A stretch of DNA of 32,035 nt, from contig NZ_WEKL01000108.1 in assembly GCF_019295435.1 (NCBI RefSeq), positions 56,375 to 88,409 of the forward strand. Direction: 5' to 3'. The notes below the pieces were generated by a model, which was given only the letters and a program-made list of their open reading frames with translations, was not told the DNA's origin and searched no databases. Both the position numbers and the translations under genes were made by a program. Within the stretch, counting starts at the first letter, position 1. Each line of letters starts with the position of its first letter. Origin of the DNA: Aquimarina litoralis. GTDB lineage: Bacteria > Bacteroidota > Bacteroidia > Flavobacteriales > Flavobacteriaceae. Shown piece after piece: positions 2,290 to 18,587 of the stretch.

Positions 2290-2347
2290 TGTCTCCTATA
2301 TGTCCCTGCTGTATGTGTCGTTTTTTCAAAATAATACAGGTACTTTG
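2290..2347 (+). promoter_or_regulatory. recurring tandem-half-site promoter, copy A
   Basis: Half-sites TGTCTCC (2290-2296) and TGTCCCT (2301-2307) start 11 bp apart. A T run followed by an A-rich stretch comes next, then TACTTTG (2341-2347). The G of TTTG is 46 bp from the start of the second half-site. GTTTAC at 2355-2360 matches the GTTTAA seen at the same place in copies B and D. The ATG of the coiled-coil microprotein lies 24 nt beyond the -7-like element, so the leader would be very short. Confidence 0.55.
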
Positions 2348-2370
2348 TAGTATCGTTTACAAATACAATT

Positions 2371-2532
2371 ATGTTTCCTTTTTTGAAAAAAATATTCTTG
2401 CCAAAAAAACAACAGCTTCCAATGAATAAGATGAATGAACTTTATCTTAAAAAGAAGGATCTGGAATATAAATTAATGCGTTTAAAAGAAATAGAGCAGG
2501 AATTAAAAGAGATTAGCAAAAGTAATACTTAA
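2371..2532 (+). CDS. coiled-coil microprotein (53 aa), family unknown
   Basis: A short ORF beginning 24 nt after promoter copy A. The first third is hydrophobic and basic (MFPFLKKIFLPKKQQ). The rest is a strongly charged heptad-like helix (LKEIEQELKEISK). It is a structural match to the 54-aa protein at 15952: same length, an F-hydrophobic-K-K motif near residues 4-7 followed by a second basic patch, same C-terminal coiled coil, and the same promoter type at the same distance. That parallel is the main reason to treat it as a gene. No domain recognised. It may dimerise or attach to the membrane through its amphipathic N-terminus (inference). The regulator gene at 2667 follows after 134 bases. 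Confidence 0.55.
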   Translation: MFPFLKKIFLPKKQQLPMNKMNELYLKKKDLEYKLMRLKEIEQELKEISKSNT

Positions 2533-2666
2533 CAATATTCTAAACCGCAGAATAACAATAGTTAGAATTGTGTTTATGTATTAGGTATCTTCATAATATT
2601 TGTTAATTTCATATTAGATTTTAAGCAGTGTAAATAAAATAGGATAGCATAGTAATTGTAACGTTT

Positions 2667-4277
2667 ATGAAGATCAGAGCATTTTTGTTTTTTTTATGGA
2701 GTTGTTTAGGTGTAACGGCACAGAACGAAGTCATTAACGATAGTATTATGGTCGCTAATTGGTATAACCATGCCGTAGAAAATTCCGACCGAAAACCTAA
2801 AAGAGCGAAACTTTATTTGGATACTATTGTTCGGTTTGTAGATAGTGTTAAACATCATAAAAAAGTAAACAACAAATTCATCATTAAAAGGTTAGCAGAT
2901 GCTCATCATTTTTTGAGTTATTTTGAGCGCCGTGAGAGCAATTTCGATCAGGCACTATTACATGCTCAAAATAGTATAAAGGTGAAAGAAGAACATCATC
3001 TTTATGAATCATTAGCCTTATCATATCATCAACGAGCCTTGGCCTGGATGTCTATTTTTGATACTAATGAAGCATTTAATGATTTAATCAAGGCAGAACA
3101 AATTGCTAATCAGCGCAATAAAGGCAAACAATTGCTTCAGGTCTATAGTACTTTGGGTACATTATCACATGACCAAAATGACACGATCAACGCTTATAAA
3201 TTTTATCGCAAATCTATAGTATTAGCAGATTCTATTGGTAATAACTACCAAAGAGCATCATCTTACGCAAATTATGCCAGTTTTTTAAGGAAAGTAGGTC
3301 GTATGGAAGAAAATTTTCCTTATTTAAAAAAGGCATTGGAGTTACATCAACTAAGTAATAACAAAATAGGAATAGAATCAGACTATTTTGCTTTGGGAGT
3401 TTATTATAGATATGTTAATCAACCCAAAGAATCCATCAAATATTTTAAAAAAGCGATAGCGCTTAATAAAGAATTAAAAAGTGATAATACATTACCATAT
3501 AGATACTTAGAATTAAGCAAGGTATACGTGAAAATAGGAAACTATAAAAAGGCTTACGAAACCTATATCAAGTATAAAGATGTTTTAGATGAAAGAAATG
3601 ATATTGAGAAAGTGAGAAGAATGTCTAAATTAGAAGCAGGCTTTGAACTTGAAAAAACAAAACTTAAAGATAGTTTGGCCTATGAGCAAAAGTTAATCCT
3701 AACAAAAGCTACATTAGAACAAAAAACTACCAATAGACTTTGGCTGATATCGATATTAACTTTATGTATTATGGGTATTGCTGTTTACATATATATTAGA
3801 AACAGACAAAAAATAAAAGAACAAGCTTATCAAAATATAATACTTAACAACAAAGTAGCAACAAAAACAGAAGAGATTACCGAATTGCTAAAAGAGACTA
3901 TACAGCATATTAGATCTAAAGAACGCATTGCCGAAAATCTTCAAAAGTTATCTACTGAAAAAGAAGGTGCTAATTTAAAAAGCATTATCGCAGATTTAAA
4001 TGCTAGTAAGTCGGATAATGCAAAGTTGATGCTCATCAAGCAAAATATAGAGCAAGTAAATTATGAGTTTATCAAAAAATTAAAAAGTAAACATCCAGAA
4101 TTATCAAAAACGGATATTGAAATATGTTCTTTAACTCGTATTGGATTAAGTAGAAAAGAAGTTGCCAATCTTAGAAATACATCGTTGGAAGCTGTTAAAA
4201 AATCAAGAAGTCGATTGCGCAAAAAGATGGAACTTTCTGCAGATGTCAGCATAGAAGATTATATAAACTCAATCTGA
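2667..4277 (+). CDS. TPR-transmembrane-HTH (LuxR-like) one-component regulator
   Basis: A 536-residue protein: signal sequence (residues 1-18, ending VTAQ); TPR-like helical repeats from about 60 to 320 (for example PKESIKYFKKAIALNKELKS); a short coiled coil; a transmembrane segment at about 358-379 (LWLISILTLCIMGIAVYIYI); a cytoplasmic coiled coil at 385-470; and a C-terminal helix-turn-helix at about 479-523 (LSKTDIEICSLTRIGLSRKE, then EAVKKSRSRLRKKMEL). This order is common in Bacteroidota one-component regulators, with a periplasmic TPR sensor tied across the membrane to a LuxR-type DNA-binding domain. The HTH is related by eye to that of the regulator at 17349. Flanked by promoter copies A upstream and B and C downstream, it is a candidate activator of those promoters (inference). 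No kinase or receiver domain is present. Confidence 0.8.
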   Translation: MKIRAFLFFLWSCLGVTAQNEVINDSIMVANWYNHAVENSDRKPKRAKLYLDTIVRFVDSVKHHKKVNNKFIIKRLADAHHFLSYFERRESNFDQALLHAQNSIKVKEEHHLYESLALSYHQRALAWMSIFDTNEAFNDLIKAEQIANQRNKGKQLLQVYSTLGTLSHDQNDTINAYKFYRKSIVLADSIGNNYQRASSYANYASFLRKVGRMEENFPYLKKALELHQLSNNKIGIESDYFALGVYYRYVNQPKESIKYFKKAIALNKELKSDNTLPYRYLELSKVYVKIGNYKKAYETYIKYKDVLDERNDIEKVRRMSKLEAGFELEKTKLKDSLAYEQKLILTKATLEQKTTNRLWLISILTLCIMGIAVYIYIRNRQKIKEQAYQNIILNNKVATKTEEITELLKETIQHIRSKERIAENLQKLSTEKEGANLKSIIADLNASKSDNAKLMLIKQNIEQVNYEFIKKLKSKHPELSKTDIEICSLTRIGLSRKEVANLRNTSLEAVKKSRSRLRKKMELSADVSIEDYINSI

Positions 4278-4355
4278 TCTTTTGTTAGTAAACTTGTTTT
4301 CGAAAAATAAAACAAACCAATTTATATTGATTTAGCTATATGTAGGTCCAAAACA

Positions 4356-4414
4356 TGTACCCACATTTGCACCCTCCTATTTTTTTAAGAAAAATCATTT
4401 TGTGATTTACTTTG
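4356..4414 (+). promoter_or_regulatory. recurring tandem-half-site promoter, copy B
   Basis: Half-sites TGTACCC (4356-4362) and TGCACCC (4368-4374) start 12 bp apart. They are followed by a T7 run, AAGAAAAA, and TTACTTTG (4407-4414), whose G is 46 bp from the second half-site. GTTTAA follows at 4421-4426. Copy B resembles copy D most closely, including the T run and the sequence around the -7 element. No ORF starts just after it, unlike copies A and D. Confidence 0.55.
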
Positions 4415-4480
4415 TAATGCGTTTAAACTCTGCTTTAGTGTGTACTTGTATAAGTGAGTTTTAACATTAGGAAAAATAAA

Positions 4481-4537
4481 TGTCTCCTATTTGTCTCCAT
4501 TATTCTTTTTAAGAATAAAGAGTCCAAATTAGTTTTG
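4481..4537 (+). promoter_or_regulatory. recurring tandem-half-site promoter, copy C
   Basis: Two exact TGTCTCC half-sites (4481-4487, 4492-4498) start 11 bp apart, then CTTTTTAAGAATAAAG and a full-consensus TAGTTTTG (4530-4537), with the G 45 bp from the second half-site. It is the nearest promoter to the exported-protein operon, whose ATG is 135 nt downstream, leaving a long leader. Confidence 0.6.
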
Positions 4538-4671
4538 CAAGATAAAATCATAACAATCAAGATATTCATTTAAAAATATAAAACATTGTTTTCAAGAATG
4601 CACATAAGTAATCACTTATTTCAAGTATGCATCAAATTAATTCTGAAACAAAACTTAAATCATTTCTAATT

Positions 4672-5565
4672 ATGAAAAGAAAATTACTTACTTCGTTTTT
4701 TATTGCATTTCTAACTATGTCGACTGTAATGTCTCAGAGTTCTGCCAGTGAAGCGGGAATTGCTATACAAGGTATTGCCAGAAATGCGGATAATACCGCC
4801 ATTACAGATGATTCCGTGAACCTTACCTTTGAGTTATATTATTTTAACGCTTCAAATCTGGAGGAAGCTATATATTCTGAAACTACTACTGTAGATACAG
4901 ATGCTTTCGGAGTGTTTTCTCATGTTATAGATCCCGGATCGGCAAACAATGCTATTATTGCAAATAACCTTGCCTATCTTAGAATAAGTGAAGGCACTAC
5001 CATAATATCAGATGAAAAACTAAAACACGTACCCTACGCGATTGCTGCTAATAATGGTGTTCCTACGGGAGCTATCATGCCATTTATTGGTACTTCTGTA
5101 CCTGACGGCTGGGTATTGTGTAATGGACAAAGTTTAACATCTACTCCAGGATCCGCAAATTTAATAGCACTATTAGGGTCCAATAATGCTCCTGATTTAC
5201 AAGGTATGTTTTTAAGAGGTACCGGTACCAGTCCGGTAAACGGAGAAGATGGGCCTTCTTTACAAGGCACACAAGACGATACATTCGAAGCTCACACCCA
5301 TAATCAAGGAACCTTAGCTACATCTACAGCAGGAGCGCATAATCATAATGATAGTGTCAATGGCTTTAATATGGTATTAAAGGAAGATGGAAAGAAAACG
5401 CTCGACGGATCTGATAATGATTCGGATCAACCCAATTTATTTGAATCAGAGGCAATAGCAACAGATGGTGATCATACCCACAATATAAGTGGTAATACAG
5501 GAAGTACCGGTGGTACAGAAACAAGACCGGTAAACTACGGGGTAAACTATATCATCAAACTATAA
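4672..5565 (+). CDS. secreted phage-tail-collar-domain protein
   Basis: From the ATG at 4672 the protein has 297 residues and a clear signal peptide (MKRKLLTSFFIAFLTMSTVM, cleavage near residue 22). An ATG at 4627 would add 15 residues that bury the signal peptide, so 4672 is preferred. Residues about 25-125 form a beta-rich N-terminal domain common in exported Bacteroidota proteins. Residues about 130-180 match the phage tail collar domain (GAIMPFIGTSVPDGWVLCNG, then PDLQGMFLRGTG). Histidine pairs (AHTHNQG, AHNHND, HTHNIS) and the ending ETRPVNYGVNYIIKL are also typical of collar-type fibres. In phages the domain sits at fibre tips; here the signal peptide and neighbours point to a cell-surface role. 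It is first in the operon, 8 nt ahead of the giant gene, with promoter copies B and C upstream. No other phage genes are near. Confidence 0.8.
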   Translation: MKRKLLTSFFIAFLTMSTVMSQSSASEAGIAIQGIARNADNTAITDDSVNLTFELYYFNASNLEEAIYSETTTVDTDAFGVFSHVIDPGSANNAIIANNLAYLRISEGTTIISDEKLKHVPYAIAANNGVPTGAIMPFIGTSVPDGWVLCNGQSLTSTPGSANLIALLGSNNAPDLQGMFLRGTGTSPVNGEDGPSLQGTQDDTFEAHTHNQGTLATSTAGAHNHNDSVNGFNMVLKEDGKKTLDGSDNDSDQPNLFESEAIATDGDHTHNISGNTGSTGGTETRPVNYGVNYIIKL

Positions 5566-5573
5566 ACATACCT

Positions 5574-8500
5574 ATGAAGAAAATACTAGTAGCACTAGGG
5601 CTTTTGCTTCTGGGTACAGAAGCTTTTGCCCAGGATGGTGCGCAGCATGTTACGGCATCGCAAACCATTCAGAGCAATGGATATTCCATACAAGTTGGAG
5701 TTCCATATTTGGGACAAAACATCAATAGTATAGATCGAACCATTAATCCGGTAGACGTACGTTTTCCCTGGGATATACTATATCTCTACAATACTTTCGA
5801 AGAAGAATCATTCGATGTATCAAAAGGATACTTTGGTGATAAAGTATTGTTAATCTGGAGTATACGTAATAATATAGATGATATCACCAATATAAAAATC
5901 TATCGTAGAGAGTTTGGTACAATTGATTATGATTTTATCAGTAATGTATCTCCTATAGCTACCGAGTACGAAGATGAATATGTAGAGGGAGGAGTTTTGT
6001 ATGAGTATAAAGTGGAAGCCGAAGGAGTTAGTGATATCGAAGAATTGTATAATACATACATCACCGGAATAGGATATAGAAGCCCGACGGCTGTTGTTAC
6101 CGGAAATATTAGCTATGAAGGTGGAAATCCTGTAAAAGATGTGATTATTAAGGCAACCCCTCAAGGGAGTAATATTAATACAGGTAGTGCATTAGTAATT
6201 CCAGCTGCAGGTCAAGTAGAGATTGAAGGGATTGAAAACCCGATAACATCTTCAACTACTTTACAGGCTTGGATAAGACCAGCTCAGGCATACACTAATG
6301 ATTCAGAAAACCCTATTCGAGTTTTTGGACTTAGAAGTTCTAATAACCCGCTAAGTTCAGAGAATCCTTTAGAGATCAAAGCACAGGTATTAATTGGGTC
6401 TAATATATTTAAGGTCACTATAGCTGGTAGTGAGTATCTTCTTGAAAATTATTATCCTTCTGGAAATTTAAACGCTCGTGGTGATGATGAACTCTTACCC
6501 ATTGCGAACCTTAACACAGATTATGTACATCTTTCTGTGGTATTAAAGGATGGCAGTATACCAGTGGTTTACATTAATGGTAGAGAAATAAGCCAAACCT
6601 ATAGAGATGAGGTGCACAATACATTAGTAGACGCTGATGCTTCCTATGTGGCGCCTTATTTTCAGGTCACAGTACCTACACAGACCGTCTCTATGAAAAT
6701 TGATGGTAACGATACCAATTGGGATGATATCTATATTGGTGGAGATCGTGAAGCTCTTGTGGATGAAATCCGTATATGGAAAAATGTTTTAGATCCAGAA
6801 GATATCCGTACAGATTTCAAGCGATATATCAGTGGTAATTATGCAAATCTTATTGCCTATCTAACCGCAAATGAAGGAATTGGTGAATATGCCTATGATT
6901 TTTCAAGAAATGGTTTTAACTATAATAAAAACCACGGAAAATTGTATGATGCGTATACAGCTGATAGTGATAAAATCAGTTGGATCTCAGGATCTGGTAA
7001 TATTCCTACCTCGGATCAATTAGGGATACTTGGAGTAAGTGATAGCAATGGAAATTATGAAATCACATCTATCCCTTATTCAGGTTCTGGAGAATCATTT
7101 ACGATTACACCACTTTATGGGCAACATCAATTCGAACCAAACCAGCAATTGGTGTTTTTGGGTCAAGGTGCTGAAGTAATAAATAAAATAGATTTCACAG
7201 ACACTTCTTCCTTTATTTTTAAAGGAAAAGTTTTATATGACACGCAAGGAGTTTTCCCATCGTTTGTAGAAGTCAATGGAGGAAGTTTTTCTGGACTTAC
7301 CGATGGAGATGAATATGTAAGTGGTCCAGGAATATTAGACGAAGGATATAATTATTATACCAAAGGAACGGAGAAATTTTACAAAGGACAGTATACGTAT
7401 AATGATAATGGAACACCTAATGACGATACGGATGACTACCTAGAAAGATATGCAAATATCCCATCAGAAGAGGTTCAGGTGTTTATAGATGGCGAAATTG
7501 TATTAGATGAAAACAATGTACCTGTAACTTCGGATGATGAGGGTAATTTTGAAATTAGTGTTCCTATAGGGAATCATTACATCACCGTAAAAAAAGATGG
7601 ACACGAGTTTGTGTATAGTGGACGTTTTCCGGCTGAAACAGACGAATTTTATGAATTTTTTGAAGATGCTGAAGAATCCGTAATTTTTGTGGATACCACT
7701 AGAGTAACGGTTGTTGGTAGAGTTGTAGGAGGAACTGTAGAAGCGCAGAAATCCATTGGTTTTGGTGCTAATGGCACCTATACTGGTTCCTATACTGATG
7801 ATGATAGCAATATCCAGGAAGTAGAAATTAGCTCCATCAATAATATTGGTGCCGCCAATATGAGCTTGGGATATACGCCTTCTGGAGGAAGTGTCACTGA
7901 GTATACAAAATTTGGTTTTACCACAAATAGTGAGACTGGCGAGTATCGTGTTTCGGTATTGCCATTAAATTATGAGATTGATCAGATCACTGGATTATTG
8001 ATTCCTAACAATAACGCAATCAATATTTTATCGGCAAATGAATCTGTAAACCTTTCCAGTGTTCCAACAATGGAAACTCCAGTGTATGAATATCCTGATG
8101 GCTCTTTTGAAGAAGGAGATGCCTATCATTTTGAGAAAAGTTTTACTTACCGTACCACTCCGGTACTGAGAGTGGTGAAACAAACATCTGATAGTGAGAT
8201 TGAAGTAAATGATGAGATGATCAGCACAGATGGTTTCGAATATCCAGTGTATACACAGTTTGGAACCTATGAAATTGAATTAAACAGTTTCGAACGTTAT
8301 ATCAATTATGATGGAGCAGAAGAGGTAGAAGATTTAGTGGCAGTAACAGATGGAGAGTTAAATATTACCAATAATTTAGCGTTGGCAGGTTCCGAAACGA
8401 TAACAACAGATGCTACAGACGCGAGTATAATCAAATACTCGTTTAAAGCGGGATTACCGGCAATTTCACTTCCATTTACCAATACCCTAAATGTTCAGTA

Positions 8501-11500
8501 TCGAGTAGGAGGAGTTGATTATGAGGCCGAAAATTATTTGAACGAAGGGATTATCTTAGGAGGACAGTCTGATGGTAGTCAAACTTTTGTAACACAAGCA
8601 CCAGATGTTCCGGATATCATTCTGCGTGATCCACCGGGATCTAATAGTTTTGCTTCGATTGAAGCAGGACAAAGTATTACGCTAACGTCTGAAAGAGAAT
8701 ATGAAAAGACCATAGGAGTAGATAATGACACAAAAATCATGCTCGGAGTAACATTTGGAGCTGGTGGAGGATTAGCAGGTCCCGTAATTACAAGTGAAAC
8801 TACAAACAATATTCAGACTGGGATTACAGTAAGTAATGAGTCCGAATATGGGTATGATTTATCCAAAACCTATACGTTTACACAAACCATTTCTACAAGT
8901 GATGATCCTGAATTCGTTGGAGCCGAGGCAGATTTATATATCGGTCAATCAAAGAATTACTTCTATGGGGTTTATGATGATATTCAGGTATCAGAAGAAA
9001 TTATTGGAGATTCAGATTCATATCAACTAACCAACACAGAGGGTTTGGGGATTTATGTAAGTAAACAAAAAGCCATGTATTTTGTTGAGGAACCTTCAGA
9101 AACGTTCTTTGTATACTCTCAAAAGTATATTCTAAATGACCTTATTCCTAGTATAGAATTAATAATTTCTAATATCGATAATGGGATTATTTCTGAAACT
9201 GATCCAGGAGTACTCACAAAAGCAGAATATGAGCAACAAATAAACCTTTGGAGAAAAACGATTCTTGATAATGAAAGAACTAAGTACAGAGCCTTAAATG
9301 ACCGAGCAGCTATAAAAACTGAAGTGGATAACGAAATGGATGACCTCATACAAGAGTTGCAAGATGAGTTATCAAGTGGGACCTCTGTAGGACCAATAGA
9401 AGCAGCCACCTTAGAAGCTCAAATTGATGAAGCTAATGAAATTAAGAGCTTAGTAAGTGAAAATTTTGAAGATAATGTTTCCTTCGATGCAGGAGTAGGC
9501 GAAATCTCAAAAAGTGTTGAAACGGTTACGGTTGAGACCAATACTCTGGAAATGCAGTTAGTCATTGAAGCATATGTGGCATTAGAATTAGGATTCGAAG
9601 TGAATGATTTTGGAGTTATTAATACCACTACCTTTGGAGTCAGAAAAGAGATAGAAAATAATTTTACCGAAGAAAAGGAATATAACTCAATTATATCATA
9701 TACATTAGCAGATGATGATCCTGCCAATCTATTAAGTGTGGATGTGGTAAATGCTTTTGATGGTAATGGACCAGTGTTTAGTACCATTGGAGGTGCTACT
9801 TCTTGTCCATATGAAGGAGCAGAAGAATCTTATTTCTATAACGATGGTTCTTATGATCCAGATGCTATAGAAATTTCAGAATTAGCAGAAGAAGATAGAG
9901 AGCAATTATCCTATGCAACGCAAAAAACCGAAGACCCTATAATTAGTGTAGAGGTTGCCAGCGTAACGAACATTCCAGAAGATAATAAAGCAGAATTTGT
10001 TTTAAAACTCGAAAACAGAGCTGATTTCACAAGTGATGCTGCTAGTTTTAATTATTTTGAGTTATTGGTAGATAACACCACCAATCCTAATAATGCTATA
10101 GTCAATCTTTTTGATAACGGAACCGTAGTATATGTGCCTTATGGACAAGAAATATACTATACATTAACCTTAGAAAAATCAGTATCAGATATCTATGAAT
10201 ATAATGATATTCGTGTGATTTTACAATCTAGATGTGATCCGGTTAATGTGTTTAGCGATGTATATATCTCTGCAGAGTTTGTACCTTCTTGTTCTGAGGT
10301 TGAGGTTACATCACCTCTTGAAAACTGGGTGTATAATAGAGATACAGCATACAATAATGATGGTAGCACCAATCCAATGGCGATCTCATTAAGTGGTTTT
10401 AGCACTACATTTAATAGTTTTCAGAAAATAGATCTGGAATATCGTTTGGCCTCTTCACCAACCTGGTCAAGATTACACACTTACTATACAACTCAGGAAT
10501 TTTATGATGATGCCAGTAATGAAGGACAAACTGATATATCACTTATAACAGAATCTACATTATCACATGCTTTTGATATCGAAGGATTAGCATTGGCTGA
10601 TGGGAACTATGAGTTAAGAGCAAGAACTACCTGTACAAATGATACAGAATATATCTCAGAAGTAATTGCAGGTACTGTAGATTTGAATGCACCTGAGCGT
10701 TTTGGAACGCCGACTCCAACAGACGGAATTCTATCTGCCGGAGAAGATATTCAAGTGAATTTTAATGAAGATATCTTCTTCAATTCAGCGTTGAGTAATA
10801 TCGAGATAAAAGGAGCTACCAATCAATTACCAATTGATAATAATGTATCTCTATATTTTGAAGGCACCAATAATACTGCGGTTATTAGTAATCCAAGTAT
10901 AGCTACAGGTGATTTTACGATCGAGTTTTGGATGAATAATGGTACTACATCATCTAATGCAACTATTTTTAGTCAAGAAGGAGGTACTTTAGAAATCGGT
11001 ATTGCTAATGGAGAATTATACTTTACCCTTGCTGATTTGTCTGCTAGGGGAGTTATCAGTAATGATGGCTTATTCCATCATTATACGTTTACACATCATA
11101 ATAGTACTGGAGAAATCAGTATATATGAAGATGATAGACAGATCGCTGGAGATACCGGAAGTGCCAATATACAGTTTACCAATAGCAATGACTTGATTAT
11201 TGGAGGAAATACCTTTATAGGAAATATACATGCACTTCGTTTTTGGAATAAAAGTATAAGCCTGGAAGAAGCATATGCCAACCGGTATACACAATTAGTG
11301 GGTAATGAAAGTAACCTCATTGGATATTGGCCCATGAATGAAGGACGTGATGCACTCGCTAATGATATTGCCAGATTTAAACATGCACAACTAAACTCAG
11401 TATCCTGGGATATCAAACCCAAAGGAAACTCATATGAGTTTGCAAATGGTCAATATCTAGAATTGGATAATGTATCTTTTGTACAACTTACTAATGAGAT

Positions 11501-14126
11501 GGATGCTACGCTATCTTTTTGGGTAAAAACCGAAAGTACTGATGAAGCTACGTTGTTCTCTAATGGAAGAGGTGATGGCACTGATATCGTGCAATCAAAC
11601 GGATATGCCAATAAATGGTCTATAGATATGTCTGGTACAGGAATGTTATCACTAGAAAGCGAAGGAAACTCCTACCTATTAACGGATACCAGCATTGCAG
11701 ATAATGGATGGCATCACATAGCCATTTTGTTCAATCGTATAGGGTCTTTACAAACCTATGTAGATGGAGATCTGGTATCTTCTAATCCTATGACAAATAT
11801 TGGAGGATTTTCGGGTAGCAAAATCTGGATGGGTGCTAGAGGAAATATAGATCTATCAGGTATAACAACAGTAGATAGAACATTTACCGGTAAGCTCGAT
11901 GAAATTCGTTTATGGAATACAGTGAGAAATGAGGAACAGATCATACGCGATCAATATAATGAAATAGATACCGAAAGTATAGGTTTAATGCTATATGCAA
12001 GAATGAATGACCCAGAAAATGGAACCAATGATGGTCCTAGATATTATCATCAAGATGCCAATGAAACCATCAATCTGACCAATTCAATTCTTTCTGGAGG
12101 CACCGTTAATTACACCGACGATACACCAGCAATTCAACCAGAAAGAACTACAGTGAAGTTTGATGTAAATCATGTAATTAATGAAGATGAAATGATTTTA
12201 GAGCCTTCTATAACTGATTGGGCGTCCCTTGAAGGTCAGATTGTGGACATCACAGTACATCGAATGTTTGATGCTGCTAATAATATGCAATTATCACCTA
12301 TAACATGGACTGCTTATATCAATAGAAATGAAGTAAGTTGGTATGCCGAAGGATTTAATGAAGTTGTAGAGATGATTCAGGATAATGGAACGTCTAGTAC
12401 TTTTGAGATTACTGTACTCAATAAAGGTGGTAATGAACAATCGTATGCAATTACTAATATTCCTAATTGGATGACCTTAAGTTCTTCTTCAGGAACTATC
12501 GCACCAGATAGTAAAGAAATAATAACAGTTACGATCGATGGCGAACTTGCGCCTGGTGATTATCTTGAAGATCTGTATCTCGAAACTGATTTTGGTTTTG
12601 ATCAAAAGCTTCAAGTTGCTGTAAAAGTATTAAGTGAAGAACCCGATTGGACTATTGATCCTAGTAGTTTTGATTATAGTATGAATCTGGTTGGTAGACT
12701 TAAAATTGATGGTGTTTTCTCAGATGATATGTATGATAAGATTGCAGCATTCCATGATGGAAACGTTCGGGGAGTTGTTGATTTAGAGTATAATGATGCA
12801 TATAATGAATACTTTGCTTTTATAACTATCTACAGTAATATTATTCAGGGAGAAGAAATCACATTCAGTATTTGGGATGCTTCTCAAGGAAAAATTCTTC
12901 AGGCTTCTGTAGATGGTCTCGAGACGATAACATTTGTAGAAAATGAAGTTATGGGAACACTAAGTTCACCGATAATTTTTGAAAATACAGATGAAGAAAT
13001 ACAGCAGATTAACCTAAATCAGGGATGGACCTGGATATCCCTACATATCGAAGACGAAAACTTAACAGACCTGAATGTTTTAACCGAAGGAATGAATCTT
13101 GAAACATCTGATAGAATTCTAAGTCACGCTCCATCCTTATTAGAAACATTTTATGAAGATACTTCGGGAGGAAACTGGTCAGGAACCATTGGTGCTAATG
13201 GAGGCTTATCAACTACTAAGATGTATAAAATGTATCTTGCCAATTCAGAAACACTATCTATTACTGGAAGTCCTGTAGACGCCAATACTTGGGAGTTTGA
13301 GATAAAAGAAAACTGGAACTGGCTTCCATTTATTATCGGAAGCAGCCAGTCGATTAATGAAGCAATGGCTTATTTTGAAGCAGCAGATGGGGATATCATT
13401 AAATCACAAAACCTATTTGCGGTATACGATCCAATCAATGGATGGGTTGGTACCTTAACATATCTGGAACCAGGACAAGGATATATGATAAGCTCTAGTA
13501 TCGATCAAAACTTCCGCTACCCAACATATTTAGATAGATCCATTAACAAAATTGCTGTTCAAAAAGCAAAGAATCAACCTAAAATAACGGCAGAGTTCAC
13601 AAAGTATGCACAAAACATGAATGCTATTGTTCAATTGCCAGAGGGATACCACTCTTTATATGCCTATGATGAGAAAGGTACTTTGAAAGCTACTTCAAAG
13701 GTTCAAAATATAGCAGGAGTAGATCTGGTATTTAGTACAATCTATGGAGATACTGATGAAAAGTTAACTTTCTATGTAGGAAATGACAAGGAACAAAAAG
13801 AAACCTCTTATAGTTTTGATTTTAGAGGCAATAGTATGTTAGGAACCTTACATGATCCGATTGTACTAGAAAATGTTGATATGTCTATAAATGTGTTCCC
13901 AAATCCTTTTGCACAGGATGTAACAATCGAAATCAATGCATTAAAAAGTCAAACGGTAACCGTTAGACTTTATAATCTTACTAATCAATTGGTCGTATCA
14001 ACAATGAAACAAGTAGTACCTGGAAAGAATACCTTAAAAATGAATTCTAATCTTTCACAAGGGACCTATTTCTTGCAAATTGAAACTGGTGATGCTGTAA
14101 TTACAAAGAAATTGATTAAAAAATAA
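5574..14126 (+). CDS. giant LamG-domain T9SS surface protein (2850 aa)
   Basis: Signal peptide at 1-20 (MKKILVALGLLLLGTEAFAQ). LamG-like jelly-roll domains lie at about 205-420, 1755-1943 and 1955-2136 (cues: TLQAWIRPAQ; DFTIEFWMNNG; ATLSFWVKTES, each followed by a YINGREI-, YEDDRQI- or YVDGDLV-type strand). The first is followed by carboxypeptidase-regulatory-like beta domains (SDSNGNYEITSIPYSGSGES). Residues about 1018-1160 form an alternating polar/hydrophobic region, followed by a coiled coil at about 1218-1270. Residues about 2355-2470 repeat the N-terminal domain of the next gene. The C-terminus (about 2771-2850, SINVFPNPFAQDV to KKLIKK) is a T9SS type A sorting domain, so it should cross the outer membrane by T9SS. 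LamG domains usually bind glycans or proteins, so an adhesin is the likeliest role; no catalytic motif was seen. The frame is intact across 8.5 kb. Confidence 0.85.
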   Translation: MKKILVALGLLLLGTEAFAQDGAQHVTASQTIQSNGYSIQVGVPYLGQNINSIDRTINPVDVRFPWDILYLYNTFEEESFDVSKGYFGDKVLLIWSIRNNIDDITNIKIYRREFGTIDYDFISNVSPIATEYEDEYVEGGVLYEYKVEAEGVSDIEELYNTYITGIGYRSPTAVVTGNISYEGGNPVKDVIIKATPQGSNINTGSALVIPAAGQVEIEGIENPITSSTTLQAWIRPAQAYTNDSENPIRVFGLRSSNNPLSSENPLEIKAQVLIGSNIFKVTIAGSEYLLENYYPSGNLNARGDDELLPIANLNTDYVHLSVVLKDGSIPVVYINGREISQTYRDEVHNTLVDADASYVAPYFQVTVPTQTVSMKIDGNDTNWDDIYIGGDREALVDEIRIWKNVLDPEDIRTDFKRYISGNYANLIAYLTANEGIGEYAYDFSRNGFNYNKNHGKLYDAYTADSDKISWISGSGNIPTSDQLGILGVSDSNGNYEITSIPYSGSGESFTITPLYGQHQFEPNQQLVFLGQGAEVINKIDFTDTSSFIFKGKVLYDTQGVFPSFVEVNGGSFSGLTDGDEYVSGPGILDEGYNYYTKGTEKFYKGQYTYNDNGTPNDDTDDYLERYANIPSEEVQVFIDGEIVLDENNVPVTSDDEGNFEISVPIGNHYITVKKDGHEFVYSGRFPAETDEFYEFFEDAEESVIFVDTTRVTVVGRVVGGTVEAQKSIGFGANGTYTGSYTDDDSNIQEVEISSINNIGAANMSLGYTPSGGSVTEYTKFGFTTNSETGEYRVSVLPLNYEIDQITGLLIPNNNAINILSANESVNLSSVPTMETPVYEYPDGSFEEGDAYHFEKSFTYRTTPVLRVVKQTSDSEIEVNDEMISTDGFEYPVYTQFGTYEIELNSFERYINYDGAEEVEDLVAVTDGELNITNNLALAGSETITTDATDASIIKYSFKAGLPAISLPFTNTLNVQYRVGGVDYEAENYLNEGIILGGQSDGSQTFVTQAPDVPDIILRDPPGSNSFASIEAGQSITLTSEREYEKTIGVDNDTKIMLGVTFGAGGGLAGPVITSETTNNIQTGITVSNESEYGYDLSKTYTFTQTISTSDDPEFVGAEADLYIGQSKNYFYGVYDDIQVSEEIIGDSDSYQLTNTEGLGIYVSKQKAMYFVEEPSETFFVYSQKYILNDLIPSIELIISNIDNGIISETDPGVLTKAEYEQQINLWRKTILDNERTKYRALNDRAAIKTEVDNEMDDLIQELQDELSSGTSVGPIEAATLEAQIDEANEIKSLVSENFEDNVSFDAGVGEISKSVETVTVETNTLEMQLVIEAYVALELGFEVNDFGVINTTTFGVRKEIENNFTEEKEYNSIISYTLADDDPANLLSVDVVNAFDGNGPVFSTIGGATSCPYEGAEESYFYNDGSYDPDAIEISELAEEDREQLSYATQKTEDPIISVEVASVTNIPEDNKAEFVLKLENRADFTSDAASFNYFELLVDNTTNPNNAIVNLFDNGTVVYVPYGQEIYYTLTLEKSVSDIYEYNDIRVILQSRCDPVNVFSDVYISAEFVPSCSEVEVTSPLENWVYNRDTAYNNDGSTNPMAISLSGFSTTFNSFQKIDLEYRLASSPTWSRLHTYYTTQEFYDDASNEGQTDISLITESTLSHAFDIEGLALADGNYELRARTTCTNDTEYISEVIAGTVDLNAPERFGTPTPTDGILSAGEDIQVNFNEDIFFNSALSNIEIKGATNQLPIDNNVSLYFEGTNNTAVISNPSIATGDFTIEFWMNNGTTSSNATIFSQEGGTLEIGIANGELYFTLADLSARGVISNDGLFHHYTFTHHNSTGEISIYEDDRQIAGDTGSANIQFTNSNDLIIGGNTFIGNIHALRFWNKSISLEEAYANRYTQLVGNESNLIGYWPMNEGRDALANDIARFKHAQLNSVSWDIKPKGNSYEFANGQYLELDNVSFVQLTNEMDATLSFWVKTESTDEATLFSNGRGDGTDIVQSNGYANKWSIDMSGTGMLSLESEGNSYLLTDTSIADNGWHHIAILFNRIGSLQTYVDGDLVSSNPMTNIGGFSGSKIWMGARGNIDLSGITTVDRTFTGKLDEIRLWNTVRNEEQIIRDQYNEIDTESIGLMLYARMNDPENGTNDGPRYYHQDANETINLTNSILSGGTVNYTDDTPAIQPERTTVKFDVNHVINEDEMILEPSITDWASLEGQIVDITVHRMFDAANNMQLSPITWTAYINRNEVSWYAEGFNEVVEMIQDNGTSSTFEITVLNKGGNEQSYAITNIPNWMTLSSSSGTIAPDSKEIITVTIDGELAPGDYLEDLYLETDFGFDQKLQVAVKVLSEEPDWTIDPSSFDYSMNLVGRLKIDGVFSDDMYDKIAAFHDGNVRGVVDLEYNDAYNEYFAFITIYSNIIQGEEITFSIWDASQGKILQASVDGLETITFVENEVMGTLSSPIIFENTDEEIQQINLNQGWTWISLHIEDENLTDLNVLTEGMNLETSDRILSHAPSLLETFYEDTSGGNWSGTIGANGGLSTTKMYKMYLANSETLSITGSPVDANTWEFEIKENWNWLPFIIGSSQSINEAMAYFEAADGDIIKSQNLFAVYDPINGWVGTLTYLEPGQGYMISSSIDQNFRYPTYLDRSINKIAVQKAKNQPKITAEFTKYAQNMNAIVQLPEGYHSLYAYDEKGTLKATSKVQNIAGVDLVFSTIYGDTDEKLTFYVGNDKEQKETSYSFDFRGNSMLGTLHDPIVLENVDMSINVFPNPFAQDVTIEINALKSQTVTVRLYNLTNQLVVSTMKQVVPGKNTLKMNSNLSQGTYFLQIETGDAVITKKLIKK

Positions 14127-14142
14127 AAGTTAAAATGATTAT

Positions 14143-14276
14143 AGAGGTAGTCCAAAAAGTTATGCTAGAATGTCGAACTGAGCTTGTCGAAGTTATTAAA
14201 CTATCGAACTTTCAATATGTCTTCGACAGGTTCAGACTGACAAATACAAGCTTTTAACACTTTTTAGATAGCCTCT
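14143..14276. repeat. REP-like inverted-repeat element inside an operon
   Basis: Inner arms of 22 nt at 14171-14192 (TGTCGAACTGAGCTTGTCGA and two more bases) and 14221-14242 are inverted copies that differ at about five positions. Outer arms (AGAGGTAGTC... from 14143; ...TAGCCTCT to 14276) continue the pairing imperfectly. The core GAGCTTGTCGAAG is a motif I associate with dispersed palindromic repeats in flavobacterial genomes. It occupies nearly all of the 171 nt between the giant gene and the next gene and can form a long hairpin, so it may partially terminate transcription or protect mRNA ends. Confidence 0.6.
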
Positions 14277-14297
14277 TAATTCAAAAAATATAAATAG

Positions 14298-15212: not shown

Positions 15213-15214
15213 AA

Positions 15215-15604
15215 ATGAAAAAATATATAGCAATAAACCTATTATTGGTTTCCATTTTATTCTATAATTGTTCTAATGAGGATGATGTTACTACTTTTGT
15301 TCCCATATCCATAAACTTTGCATATCCTGATGGGACTGTTATCCTGGAGGATGATTGTATAAACCCTGCTGAACAGTTCTCCATTGCAATTGGCGTAAAT
15401 ACTTTTGGAGTTGGTCCTTCTATACCTACCAAAGTAGATTATACGGTAAATGGAGCTTTATATAGTACAACTTTCACAAACGACGAGATCAAAATGATAC
15501 CTATAACCCTGCAAGAAGGGACGAATATAGCTCAAATTGTGAATAATGGACGCTCAAGTACAATACATATTACAACTCAAGATGATTTTGTTTTGGTAGA
15601 ATAA
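15215..15604 (+). CDS. small lipoprotein, probably surface-exposed
   Basis: A 129-residue protein with a type II signal: MKKYIAINLLLVSILFYNC, with the lipidated cysteine at residue 19. SNEDD follows the cysteine; an acidic run there fits the Bacteroidota lipoprotein export signal that sends lipoproteins to the outer face of the outer membrane. The remainder is beta-rich (VDYTVNGALYSTTFTNDEIK) with one further Cys, and resembles a short Ig-like or cadherin-like sandwich. It is the last gene of the operon, 2 nt after the previous stop and 26 nt before a strong terminator. It could anchor or assist the secreted proteins encoded upstream. Family not recognised. Confidence 0.65.
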   Translation: MKKYIAINLLLVSILFYNCSNEDDVTTFVPISINFAYPDGTVILEDDCINPAEQFSIAIGVNTFGVGPSIPTKVDYTVNGALYSTTFTNDEIKMIPITLQEGTNIAQIVNNGRSSTIHITTQDDFVLVE

Positions 15605-15630
15605 ACATATACCCTATATCATAAGAATGT

Positions 15631-15670
15631 AAAAAGAGGCTATTCGATTTTTAGAATAGTCTCTTTTTTT
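15631..15670 (+). terminator. rho-independent terminator of the LamG operon
   Basis: Stem AAAAAGAGGCTATTC (15631-15645) pairs with GAATAGTCTCTTTTTT (15654-15669) with one G-T pair and an 8-nt loop, and the right arm runs into seven Ts. The A-rich left flank makes it potentially bidirectional. It ends the collar-LamG-lipoprotein operon. Confidence 0.85.
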
Positions 15671-15871
15671 ACAACATTTTGGTAAATAAAACACCTCAAA
15701 AAAAATAGTATTCCAACCCTCTAAAGATGTTTTACCCATTCGTTTAAAGTAGTAGTGATGCATATAAATCATATTAGTTCTTCCCGATTACTATAAATCA
15801 AGGCTAATTTCCCAGATGTACTCTAATAACAAAAATGTTTTAATTACCTGAAAATCATATGTTTAAAATTA
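15671..15871. other. intergenic stretch between the two modules
   Basis: About 200 AT-rich bases between the terminator and promoter copy D. No ORF, hairpin or repeat is seen in it. Confidence 0.4.
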
Positions 15872-15930
15872 TGTACCCTAATATGTCCCCCCTCTTTTTT
15901 TAGAAAAAACAGATTTTGTTGGTTACTTCG
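15872..15930 (+). promoter_or_regulatory. recurring tandem-half-site promoter, copy D
   Basis: Half-sites TGTACCC (15872-15878) and TGTCCCC (15884-15890) start 12 bp apart. A T7 run, AGAAAAAAC and TTACTTCG (15923-15930) follow, with the G 46 bp from the second half-site; the -7-like element has one change from TTTG. GTTTAA is at 15937-15942. The microprotein ATG is 22 nt after the -7-like element, matching copy A. Confidence 0.55.
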
Positions 15931-15951
15931 TACTGTGTTTAACAACCAACT

Positions 15952-16116
15952 ATGATACGGTTTATAAAAAAGATGTTTACTCTTAAAAAATCGGATCTCC
16001 AGTTTGATATAATTCATGATTTAGAAATAGAAAATAAAAAACTGGAAGACATCCTACATAAATTAAAGGATTTAGAAAAAGAGTTAAAGCTAACAAATCA
16101 AAAAGAAAAGATATGA
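15952..16116 (+). CDS. coiled-coil microprotein (54 aa), second copy
   Basis: The N-terminus is hydrophobic and basic (MIRFIKKMFTLKKSDLQF) and the rest a charged heptad-like helix (KLEDILHKLKDLEKELKL). It matches the 53-aa protein at 2371 in length, layout and genomic position relative to its promoter. Its TGA (16114-16116) overlaps the ATG of the next gene (16113) as ATGA, so the two are almost certainly translationally coupled, which supports it being real. No known domain. The amphipathic start could dock to the membrane and the coiled coil could bind the adjacent STAS-like or regulator proteins (inference). Confidence 0.65.
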   Translation: MIRFIKKMFTLKKSDLQFDIIHDLEIENKKLEDILHKLKDLEKELKLTNQKEKI

Positions 16117-16523
16117 GTACAGTACAGGCATACCCAATGGCAGAACCAGTTTCTATATCATATACGCCTCCTACGTGGAAACATAGAATGAATGTAGAGT
16201 ATATAGAAATTGATTTTTCTGGACTTCATACAGAAGAAGAAGTGATCCAATGCGTTTCGGATGCTGCTGAAATGGGGTTACAAAGATATGACAAAACCGT
16301 ACGTGCATTGGTATATGCAAAAGGAATGAAAACCAGTCCAAAAGCCATGCGAACAATAAAAAAATTAGGTAAAACAGTACAGCCTAAGCTTAAAAAATCA
16401 GCATTGGTAGGCTCCGTTGGGATTGTATCTCTACTAATGAAAATATATGTTAGTTATACGGGTAGTAAAATCAAGTTTTTTACGGATAGAGAAGCCGCTA
16501 TTAAGTATTTGATCAACGATTAA
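16113..16523 (+). CDS. STAS/SpoIIAA-like protein, first of three paralogues
   Basis: 136 residues, no signal peptide or membrane segment. Pattern: WKHRMNVEYIEIDFSGL, a helix, then VRALVYAKGM, a basic helix (AMRTIKKLGKTVQPKLKKSA), LVGSVGIVSLLMKIYVSYTG, and KFFTDREAAIKYLIND at the end. The order beta strand / helix / strand / KKSAlVG / FxDxEAAixYL resembles the SpoIIAA-like (STAS/SEC14 fold) family of small bacterial proteins, whose biochemical role is poorly known; some STAS proteins antagonise anti-sigma factors. It overlaps the microprotein by 4 nt and is followed by two paralogues. Compared with the others it has a longer N-terminus (residues 1-20). Being in an operon that ends in an HTH regulator suggests a signalling or switch role. 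Confidence 0.55.
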   Translation: MSTVQAYPMAEPVSISYTPPTWKHRMNVEYIEIDFSGLHTEEEVIQCVSDAAEMGLQRYDKTVRALVYAKGMKTSPKAMRTIKKLGKTVQPKLKKSALVGSVGIVSLLMKIYVSYTGSKIKFFTDREAAIKYLIND

Positions 16524-16561
16524 AATGCCTATAAGAAATCTTTATACAAATTAGTCGAGAC

Positions 16562-16951
16562 ATGGCAAAAGAACATATACATATGATCTATAAACAACCT
16601 CAATGGAAACATGCTAATAATATAGAATATATAGAAATGGACTTTACCAGTTACAAATCTGATGAGCTAATCATAAGACATTATACAGAAGCATGTGATA
16701 TGATTTTAAAGAGGCCTGATAAAAGTTCGAGAGTACTAGTAAATGCCAAAGGAGTAATCATCAGTACGAAGACAATGCGAGTAATCAAAGAAATCGGAAA
16801 AAGAACACAACGAGGCGTAAAAAAATCAGCCATCGTAGGAACCTTAGGCATAACTACATTGATGATGAAGATTTATGTAAGCTATACAGGTAGTCCGGTA
16901 AAGTTTTTTACGGATCGAGAAGCAGCTATCAAGTATTTGATTAATAATTAA
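16562..16951 (+). CDS. STAS/SpoIIAA-like protein, second paralogue
   Basis: 129 residues. It is closest to the first copy in the C-terminal half, where the last stretch is almost the same (VKFFTDREAAIKYLINN), and to the third copy in the N-terminal half (EYIEMDFTSY, then ELIIRHYTEACDMIL). Cytoplasmic by composition and basic in the centre (IKEIGKRTQRGVKKSAIVG). The gene lies 38 nt after the first and 14 nt before the third, in the same direction. The tandem array points to duplication followed by mosaic divergence. Function unknown beyond the fold guess. Confidence 0.55.
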   Translation: MAKEHIHMIYKQPQWKHANNIEYIEMDFTSYKSDELIIRHYTEACDMILKRPDKSSRVLVNAKGVIISTKTMRVIKEIGKRTQRGVKKSAIVGTLGITTLMMKIYVSYTGSPVKFFTDREAAIKYLINN

Positions 16952-16965
16952 GAATTCCTGAAGAA

Positions 16966-17352
16966 ATGACCCAGAAAAACCCAACTATGACTTATAAAAA
17001 ACCTGAATGGAAGCACTATAAGGGCGTCGAATATTTGGAAATGGATTTTACAAGGTATACGTCAGAGGACTTGATTATAAAGCATTACACAGAAGGCTGC
17101 GAGATGATTTTAAGCAGGACAGACAATAGTGTACGAGTATTTACAGATATAACAGGAGTAATGGTAAAGATGGATACCATGCGTATTTTAAGAAAAATCG
17201 GCAAGAAAGCACAGCGTAGTATTAAAAAATCAGCCATACTGGGAGCTGTTGGGTTAGCAATATTGATGTTAAAATTTTACGTCCGTTATTCGGGTAGTAA
17301 ATTAAAGACGTTTAATCTAAAAGAAGCTGCTTTAAACTATATAACACAATGA
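16966..17352 (+). CDS. STAS/SpoIIAA-like protein, third and most diverged paralogue
   Basis: 128 residues with the same layout (WKHYKGVEYLEMDFTRY, DLIIKHYTEGCEMIL, KKAQRSIKKSAILGAVGLAI). The C-terminal signature is altered: the FFTDREAAIKYL of the other two has become TFNLKEAALNYI, with the acidic D-R pair lost and RYSGS replacing SYTGS. If D-R is part of an active or contact surface, this copy has lost or changed it. Its TGA (17350-17352) overlaps the ATG of the regulator (17349) as ATGA, implying translational coupling and a fixed ratio of this protein to the regulator. Confidence 0.55.
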   Translation: MTQKNPTMTYKKPEWKHYKGVEYLEMDFTRYTSEDLIIKHYTEGCEMILSRTDNSVRVFTDITGVMVKMDTMRILRKIGKKAQRSIKKSAILGAVGLAILMLKFYVRYSGSKLKTFNLKEAALNYITQ

Positions 17353-18206
17353 TGGATTTGGATTCGAATATGAAGGAAGTAGGTAATTCTAAAATAATAA
17401 TTTCTGTAATTACCAAAGATGCTACACAAGAGTTTATTCGGCTTTTACAGAAATATAAAGCAAAAGTGAATATCATGGATGCTATACCCAAAAAGATAGA
17501 ATCGTGGGGAGCAACACCAGATACCATAGTTATTGATAGCATTTCATATAGTAAGTGGGAACAGCAAATCAACAAACTAAAAGAAGAGAATACATATAAA
17601 GAAATCCCAGTGATCGTACTCAACGAAAAAGAAGTGAGTATTGAAGATGTTTTATCGATACAGGATAAAGATTTTTTATTACTACATCGTAATGAGTCAA
17701 TTGCTATAACCAGAGCAATTTTTGGAACCGTAAAATATTGGAGAAAACTAAACAATGCATTGATCAAAACCAATCAGTTAAACAGAATTTTATCTACTAA
17801 CTATCTGTCATTGGATGCGAAGACTGAGTGTCTGGAGAAATCAAAAAATCAGATAGAAGTAATATATCCAATAGCAAATACTGAAGTTAAAGAAGAATTA
17901 ATCAAGATTGATAACAACATTACTCAAAACTTAAAAAATGGAAACCACTATGAGTTATTTAAAGCACATTTTGAAGAAGTACATCCACTCTTTTATAAAA
18001 AATTATTAGCTATCAATAAAAATTTATCAAACAATGATCTCAAACTAGCTGCTTTACTAAAGATGGGATTTAATAATACGGAAATCTCTTTTTTTATGGG
18101 CATATCCATGGCTGGTGTAAAAAAAGCAATACAACGTTTACGAAAAAAATTAGAATTAAGACCTGAAGAATTCTTACGACCATTCATATTTACCATAGAA
18201 GTATGA
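17349..18206 (+). CDS. receiver-like / LuxR-type HTH regulator
   Basis: 285 residues, cytoplasmic. Residues about 15-125 have the alternating strand-helix pattern of a response-regulator receiver (IIISVITKDATQEFI; PDTIVIDSISYSKWE; KEIPVIVLNEKEV). The acidic pair normally following strand 1 is missing; an Asp lies at the end of strand 3 (VIDS). It therefore looks like a degenerate or phosphate-independent receiver. A helical linker spans 126-205. The C-terminus has the Bacteroidota HTH context HFEEVHPLFYKKLLA followed by LSNNDLKLAALLKMGFNNTE and VKKAIQRLRKKLEL (about 226-270), the same HTH type as the TPR regulator at 2667. It is coupled to the third STAS-like gene by ATGA overlap and followed 31 nt later by promoter copy E, so it probably controls the genes downstream and perhaps itself (inference). 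No partner kinase is in view. Confidence 0.7.
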   Translation: MMDLDSNMKEVGNSKIIISVITKDATQEFIRLLQKYKAKVNIMDAIPKKIESWGATPDTIVIDSISYSKWEQQINKLKEENTYKEIPVIVLNEKEVSIEDVLSIQDKDFLLLHRNESIAITRAIFGTVKYWRKLNNALIKTNQLNRILSTNYLSLDAKTECLEKSKNQIEVIYPIANTEVKEELIKIDNNITQNLKNGNHYELFKAHFEEVHPLFYKKLLAINKNLSNNDLKLAALLKMGFNNTEISFFMGISMAGVKKAIQRLRKKLELRPEEFLRPFIFTIEV

Positions 18207-18587
18207 AAACTGTAAAAAGATGGAAAAACGAATAAAATGTCTCCCATAAGTCTCCTTTATTAATTTTTTTTAAGTGAAATCTTAAATAATTTTGAACTGT
18301 AAATGTGTTTAATAGAACAAACATAAGTATCCCAAACTTTAAACCCCTTAGAACTATGAACTTAATAAACCCATACACCTAGCGACATCTAAATAAGAAG
18401 TGCCTCTAGCACAACTATATTTTAGAAATTCCATGTCGTTTATACTCTGAATTAACCCCACAAATATCAAGTATTTATGAATTTTGATCCCCTGTAGAAA
18501 AGGAAGATCCTAGGATTCTTTTGTCCTAAATCAATCCAAATTTTGCAGAAGAAAAGTAAGAGTAAAAATTTAAAAATCTACCCCTTT
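18207..18587. other. regulatory intergenic region and leader of the M4 protease gene
   Basis: 381 bases with promoter copy E near the start and no gene. The predicted leader is nearly 300 nt. It contains a palindrome ATCCTAGGAT (18507-18516) in a longer imperfect hairpin (about 18498-18522, A-rich left side, TTCTTTT right side), about 65 nt ahead of the ATG, which might act in termination or translation control. Confidence 0.4.
18238..18294 (+). promoter_or_regulatory. recurring tandem-half-site promoter, copy E
   Basis: Half-sites TGTCTCC (18238-18244) and AGTCTCC (18249-18255) start 11 bp apart. A T8 run, AAGTGAAA, and a consensus TAATTTTG (18287-18294) follow, with the G 45 bp from the second half-site. 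GTTTAA is at 18307-18312, about 5 bp further away than in copies B and D, so the exact -7 position here is less certain. It lies between the HTH regulator and the giant protease gene. Confidence 0.55.

Follow-up and report, generated by a model that had tools for sequence, protein, structure and literature searches.

By sequence comparison, the five sites A–E in the 32,035-nt stretch of DNA analysed here (the window) belong to a larger family of sites, present in Aquimarina and related marine Bacteroidota, that share a real, rigid and conserved promoter architecture: two direct half-sites, 11–12 bp apart, followed by a -7 box at a constant spacing. We consider it probable (roughly 80%) that these sites are operators of neighbouring LuxR-type regulators, which would bind at them and, from there, activate sigma-A promoters. 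The element was not found described in the open-access literature searched, a scope that most subscription papers fall outside. To the preliminary description of the sites, the present analysis adds a likely regulator family, spread beyond the genus and a correction of the -33 region.

Five sites with one architecture and two subtypes

Direct reading of the sequence confirmed the five tandem half-site copies, 11–12 bp apart, at the positions originally reported (Table 1), together with their intergenic location and their orientation along the genes. Measured from the start of half-site 2, the final G of the -7 element is 46 bp downstream in A, B and D and 45 bp downstream in C and E, again as first reported. 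The claim that all five represent one architecture holds, with the refinement that two subtypes exist: an 11-bp TGTCTCC-like form (A, C and E) and a 12-bp TGTACCC-like form (B and D). Each of A, B plus C, D and E heads a gene unit. Site A precedes the genes for a microprotein and the membrane regulator, site B lies 3' of that regulator gene, and site E begins 32 bp past the gene for the 285-aa regulator; a counterpart of site D is present in L146/L108.

Table 1 Sites, regulators and putative targets in the window (positions of the whole window)
Feature	Position	Strand	Description
Site A	2290-2347	+	Half-sites TGTCTCC 2290-2296 and TGTCCCT 2301-2307, 11 bp apart; -7 element 2340-2347
Coiled-coil microprotein, 53 aa	2371-2532	+	First ORF after site A
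TPR-LuxR regulator, 536 aa	2667-4277	+	TPR, one predicted membrane span (359-377), long helix, C-terminal HTH
Site B	4356-4414	+	Half-sites TGTACCC 4356-4362 and TGCACCC 4368-4374, 12 bp apart; -7 element 4407-4414
Site C	4481-4537	+	Half-sites TGTCTCC 4481-4487 and TGTCTCC 4492-4498, 11 bp apart; -7 element 4530-4537
Putative targets of B and C	4627-14126	+	312-aa Collar-domain protein; 2850-aa protein with Laminin-G domains and a type IX sorting domain
Site D	15872-15930	+	Half-sites TGTACCC 15872-15878 and TGTCCCC 15884-15890, 12 bp apart; -7 element 15923-15930; reads TTACTTCG
Coiled-coil microprotein, 54 aa	15952-16116	+	First ORF after site D
Three small similar-looking proteins, 136, 129 and 128 aa	16113-17352	+	First SpoIIAA-like over cut-off, second below cut-off
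LuxR-type regulator, 285 aa	17349-18206	+	No predicted membrane span; N-terminal part without family assignment
Site E	18238-18294	+	Half-sites TGTCTCC 18238-18244 and AGTCTCC 18249-18255, 11 bp apart; -7 element 18287-18294
Putative target of E, 3060-aa M4 metallopeptidase	18588-27770	+	Leucine-rich repeats; start ATG 18588 assumed

That five such copies arose by chance in an AT-rich sequence has a negligible probability in our estimate, even though the bare 11-bp pattern by itself is close to chance in the window: the bare 18-mer pair with up to two mismatches was found seven times against 4.3 expected. The 12-bp form of the pair was found 10 times against 4.3 expected, a count reached in 0 of 100 shuffles. 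Against chance also stand the independent loci, the 36/36 linkage to regulator genes, the fixed -7 offset and the 11/12-bp peak at class level, all presented below, and the ranking by a whole-architecture matrix built from 41 sites of other genomes, some of which belong to the same genus. This matrix placed the five sites as the top five of the window (B 38.8, D 38.1, C 34.1, E 26.4 and A 16.0 bits). In 100 Markov windows scored on one strand as the null, the 95th percentile was 16.5 and the maximum 18.4 bits; B, C, D and E lie well above all of these windows, and site A is not significant alone because its score falls below both values.

We then asked how a matrix behaves in genes and upstream of them across the 6.3-Mb genome, the comparison proposed in the preliminary description, and the answer depended on the -7 box. 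With a half-site matrix trained on this genome's own sites, 39 pattern hits were examined (9/9 from one search and 30/59 from another), and half-sites alone failed to separate genes from gaps. Among these 39 hits, 8 scoring at least 17 bits lay outside frames of more than 87 codons, compared with 10 inside frames of at least 224 codons, and the best in-frame hit reached 21.0 bits against 21.1 bits for the lowest of the 8 outside. Adding a -7 box (at least 4/6, offset 38–40) separated the two classes: it was present in 8/8 outside hits and in 1/10 in-frame hits of at least 17 bits (4/31 of all in-frame hits). The bare half-site pattern was consequently rejected as proof, being near chance in the window and giving no separation of genes and gaps on score alone. 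This genome holds at least 12 sites, namely A–E, C1:71435, C64:16221, C64:35585, C46:25768, C40:39999, C40:43748 and C40:51976.

Promoter anatomy

The alignment comprises 51 sites: 10 from this genome (two of which, G and H, were first noticed through their -7 box), 12 from other Aquimarina, 28 that score at least 14 bits on half-sites alone, and the site of L132 (6.7 bits, a diverged pair of two TGTTACC half-sites that has a good -7 box), included on visual inspection. The 12 other-Aquimarina sites were also picked by eye and represent 8 of 24 pattern loci plus 4 extra, the rest having been omitted as genic or as lacking the architecture. Counts over these sites are not all independent events, because some rows come from near-identical relatives such as L150 and L157. 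With half-site 2 at offset 0, the consensus reads TG[TC][CA]CCC, followed by a T tract (+12 to +17) and then by T39 A40 n n T43 T44 T45 G46, with T at offset 44 in 51/51 sites. TAnnTTTG (at least 5/6) occurs at offset 39 in 21 of the 29 named sites, which were not selected by their -7 box, and in 35/51 of all sites; offset 40 accounts for 3/29 named sites, and every offset but 39 for at most 4.

Two details of the preliminary description required correction. Its statement that no -33 element is evident is only half right: TTTG is not clear there, but the T tract sits at the expected -33 position. The GTTTAA after the -7 box is indeed found in A, B, D and E, but it is no general feature, since offsets 53–58 carry at most 0.52 bit over the 51 sites.

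According to the portion of the F. psychrophilum study consulted, TAnnTTTG is the sigma-A motif, with the -7 box mapped at -12 to -5 (PMC9723704). By analogy, half-site 2 would span roughly -51 to -45 and the T tract roughly -39 to -34, with half-site 1 a helical turn upstream of half-site 2. Among the promoter signals described in that portion, which include the motifs SM1-6, it is this sigma-A -7 box that the sites reported here have in common; the sprB adhesin operon there relies on other signals, sigma-54 and SM5; the text searched gave no match for LuxR or direct repeats (PMC9723704).

In every aligned site the half-sites are located upstream of the T tract and the -7 box, and none overlaps the start. 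This bears on the alternative that neighbouring regulators bind the repeats but repress, blocking the promoter until a signal releases it. Repression would be expected to produce the same site anatomy and the same regulator linkage, but a position upstream of the promoter is the usual one for activators, and we regard this alternative as unlikely.

Linkage to LuxR-type regulator genes

A set of 42 named Flavobacteriaceae loci was fetched by the C-terminal part of the regulator only, without any DNA motif; the loci derive from Aquimarina, Kordia, Tenacibaculum, Gilvibacter, Hanstruepera, Salegentibacter, Aureisphaera, Lacinutrix, Bizionia, Hyunsoonleella and other Flavobacteriaceae. Using the own-genome matrix, a pair of at least 12 bits was detected within 600 bp past the regulator stop in 29/42 loci, compared with 0/42 in the coding control and 4/42 on the reverse strand; at 15 bits or more the counts were 26/42, 0 and 0. 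The 13 loci lacking a pair of at least 12 bits comprise six in which the next gene is on the opposite strand, six in which a second regulator comes next, and L132. In the six loci with a second regulator, the site follows that second gene in 6/6 (+93, +94, +94, +94, +18 and +166). A pair after the regulator is thus present in 36/36 loci whose next non-regulator gene is co-directional (30 directly, including the pair of L132 accepted by eye, and 6 after a second regulator), a count that disregards minus-strand ORFs of 61–83 codons adjoining the regulator in L137, L138 and L145. In two of the six opposite-strand loci, L127 and L142, a site lies 400–500 bp upstream of the regulator start. Distances from regulator stop to site form clusters, at exactly +21 in 8 loci and at +95 to +101 in 10 (L116-L157), and after four second regulators the site is at +93 or +94.

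Within this genome, a pair of at least 20 bits follows the gene in 6 of the 30 loci matched by the 536-aa regulator; the other 24, many of them other TPR proteins, have no pair above 13.0 bits after the gene. In one of these, with the regulator at C97:2805-4244 (L057, L105), tandem TGCAACC half-sites 11 bp apart lie downstream of the regulator and are a diverged form of the element.

Two further readings concern this linkage. The repeats might bind another, unlinked DNA-binding protein, with regulator genes merely frequent neighbours, and sites away from regulator genes do exist, for example in L111 and at C40:51976; we hold this to be very unlikely in view of the 36/36 linkage and the association of half-site letters with the recognition helix of the neighbouring regulator (see below). 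Alternatively, G+C-rich repeats followed by a T tract might constitute a terminator or an RNA element downstream of the regulator gene, many sites lying 18–110 bp past a stop codon with a T run. This hardly seems credible, given that the repeats are direct and not inverted, that sites such as those of L127 and L142 precede the regulator gene, that the distance to the -7 box is kept, and that the window contains no Rfam family and sites A–C no terminator prediction.

Regulator proteins and their nearest known systems

A membrane span was predicted by hydropathy in the 536-aa regulator and in 42/42 named relatives, but not in the 285-aa regulator, and in these membrane regulators the predicted arrangement puts a TPR or 7TMR-DISM sensor on one side of the membrane and the HTH on the other. 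GerE (PF00196) scores of the 536-aa and 285-aa regulators, 16.7 and 16.3 bits, are both below the Pfam cut-off of 23.5 bits; among relatives, L115 reaches 25.0 bits and L110 22.7 bits. The HTH model (pLDDT 89.1) displays a four-helix LuxR-type fold that aligns with NarL/LuxR-type domains. In a structure comparison of the full 536-aa model, the 50 matches listed were TPR proteins (LGN, kinesin light chain, Rap and others), and a search of the output module against sequences of solved structures returned nothing better than E 0.035.

NarL, DosR, LiaR, RcsB and VraR (NarL/LuxR, GerE) represent the same DNA-binding type. Unlike in those systems, the direct repeats here are one helical turn apart and fixed to a Bacteroidota -7 box, and the regulators are mostly membrane-anchored, as far as predicted, with no receiver domain identified. 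ToxR and CadC are membrane-anchored one-component activators, and the layout predicted here is like theirs, with sensor and HTH on opposite membrane sides; the regulators described here, however, have another HTH family and the reverse order, with the HTH at the C-terminus. MalT, a LuxR-type activator with a TPR-like sensor and direct-repeat boxes upstream of its promoter, is a soluble ATPase. It has the TPR sensor, the LuxR-type HTH and direct repeats upstream of the promoter in common with the present regulators, whereas a membrane span is predicted for the window regulator, whose MalT-like TPR score (23.9 bits) stays below the cut-off of 45. Both window regulators match the BT3442 family (NF053779) weakly over their C-terminal part, at 20.5 and 17.1 bits against a cut-off of 940. 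BT3442-family regulators were rejected as carriers of the same element, as none follows the gene in the two relatives examined (L158 and L159).

Half-site letters and the recognition helix

The two halves of a site vary jointly: TGCACCC, TGAACCC, TGTTACC, TGTCCGC and TGTCACC were each found as pairs, and half-sites agree at positions 3–6 in 93% of cases compared with 63% in shuffles, a level reached in 0 of 10,000. A recognition-helix residue of the neighbouring regulator corresponds to base 3 of half-site 2 in 33/36 pairs (K-T 17, S-C 14, T-A 2). The remaining three are M-T (1) and two exceptions, K-C (1; the window regulator with site B) and S-T (1; C1). When the preceding residue is arginine, base 6 is G in 4/7 cases, compared with 0/29 when it is lysine.

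The half-site letters may follow the recognition helix, although common ancestry may explain the pattern. Another column, R/K after the recognition helix, associates equally strongly, as expected from common ancestry, and a tree test of the residue-base code, with 1–4 independent contrasts, was underpowered and not significant. With this rival column and so few independent contrasts, we treat the association as a lead.

Spread beyond Flavobacteriaceae

To sample the class, a wider HTH alignment was applied to 119 genomes, 51 of which had a match at E <= 1e-10. This yielded 89 downstream regions, 78 of them readable; 11 were dropped because the HTH or the stop was not located, and the own-genome locus L189 was omitted. 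For the 54 regulators of at most 800 aa, direct repeats of any sequence (at least 6/7, within 400 bp) were present at a distance of 11 bp in 24 and at 12 bp in 21, compared with 2–16 at other distances from 8 to 30 and with 11 and 11 in coding DNA. When a -7 box at offset 39 was also demanded, the counts were 8 (11 bp) and 7 (12 bp) against 0–1 elsewhere. TGTACCC, TGTAGGG, TGTAGAG and TGTCCAC pairs are examples. The 24 regulators of more than 800 aa gave no peak in repeat distance, with 2/24 at 11 bp having a -7 box. Exact TGCACCC-N5-TGCACCC has four occurrences, confined to 2/199 family genomes, and each is accompanied by a -7 match of at least 4/6 at offset 39 or 40. Judging from these repeats, the grammar is broad and each half-site subtype patchy.

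Microproteins and putative target genes

Neither of the two window microproteins has an NCBIfam match, and the one after site D has one database relative. An ORF of 46–59 aa that starts with a basic/aromatic segment and ends in a coiled coil, picked by eye, is the first ORF after 16/51 sites: the two in the window, L118, L128, L131, L132, L133, L136, L137, L138, L143, L146 (trimmed to a later start), L147, L151, L153 and site I on C64. L279 encodes a 62-aa microprotein of the same kind.

The putative target operons often encode large, probably secreted proteins. Nine complete proteins encoded after named sites include two with a type IX sorting domain, five with leucine-rich repeats (one with an M4 metallopeptidase), one YHYH protein and one of no family; no sorting domain was found in the 3060-aa M4 metallopeptidase of the window. 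In L111, from another Aquimarina, sites precede cytolysin-family and phospholipase-family genes. A SpoIIAA-like protein together with a LuxR-type regulator also occurs in L146 and L147, and a similar small protein in L145. A C-terminal stretch resembling DIDMNGQVQNxDINxxxNxNxGKGEQF recurs in several giant targets (L104, L114, L131, L141, L153, L155 and L281); those of these proteins that were scanned had no sorting-domain match.

Positions 9384-10906 of L115, likewise from another Aquimarina, comprise a 7TM-LuxR gene, a site, an 82-aa GG-leader-like peptide and an ATP-grasp protein, resembling a graspetide cluster; the ATP-grasp protein is near the grasp-with-spasm maturase family, below its cut-off. 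This promoter type may thus drive a peptide natural-product cluster there.

Proposed mechanism and wiring

The activator-dependent promoter proposed in the preliminary description is supported: the repeat pair is conserved, its distance to the sigma-A -7 box is fixed and the regulator neighbours are strict, all of which fit an activator operator. A signal at the sensor across the membrane would let a pair of HTH domains bind the two repeats side by side, so that the LuxR-type regulators could activate the sigma-A promoter of the adjoining operon from half-sites that adjoin the -33 region, an ordinary activator position. Counter-evidence to this main reading comes in part from the window itself, whose own regulator with site B is one of the two K/S exceptions and whose two regulators score below the GerE cut-off. 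Also counting against it are the failure of half-site scores alone to tell genes from gaps, the few independent contrasts behind the residue-base association, the 24 own-genome loci with no pair above 13.0 bits, and the absence of a peak among regulators of more than 800 aa.

A wider proposal is tentative, and we put the odds somewhat against it. Bacteroidota membrane LuxR-type regulators may use a class-wide promoter grammar, in which two direct half-sites at a spacing of 11–12 bp, next to the regulator gene, precede TAnnTTTG by 39 bp, together with a protein-DNA code legible in the recognition helix, and the 46–59-aa microprotein may be a feedback partner that pairs with the regulator coiled coil. 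If the class-wide grammar and code hold, operators and targets would be predictable from sequence for the many orphan TPR- and 7TM-LuxR regulators of Bacteroidota genomes. One could then test how these bacteria select the large surface and secreted proteins that they produce, across a target range of giant leucine-rich-repeat and metallopeptidase proteins, type IX sorting domain proteins, a graspetide-like cluster and new microproteins.

The wiring within the window is the least certain step of the best explanation, at about even odds. The membrane regulator (2667-4277) may act at B and D; D would yield the soluble regulator (17349-18206), which may act at the TGTCTCC sites A, C and E. The circuit would then be a feed-forward loop whose outputs are the giant proteins and also the membrane regulator. 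In favour of this scheme, the 12-bp subtype follows membrane regulators and the TGTCTCC subtype follows the soluble 285-aa regulator at E, and in L147 the 18-mer of site E recurs 34 bp past the gene for the relative of that 285-aa regulator. The scheme is not clean-cut, because a TPR-LuxR gene precedes the TGTCTCC-subtype site at C1:71435.
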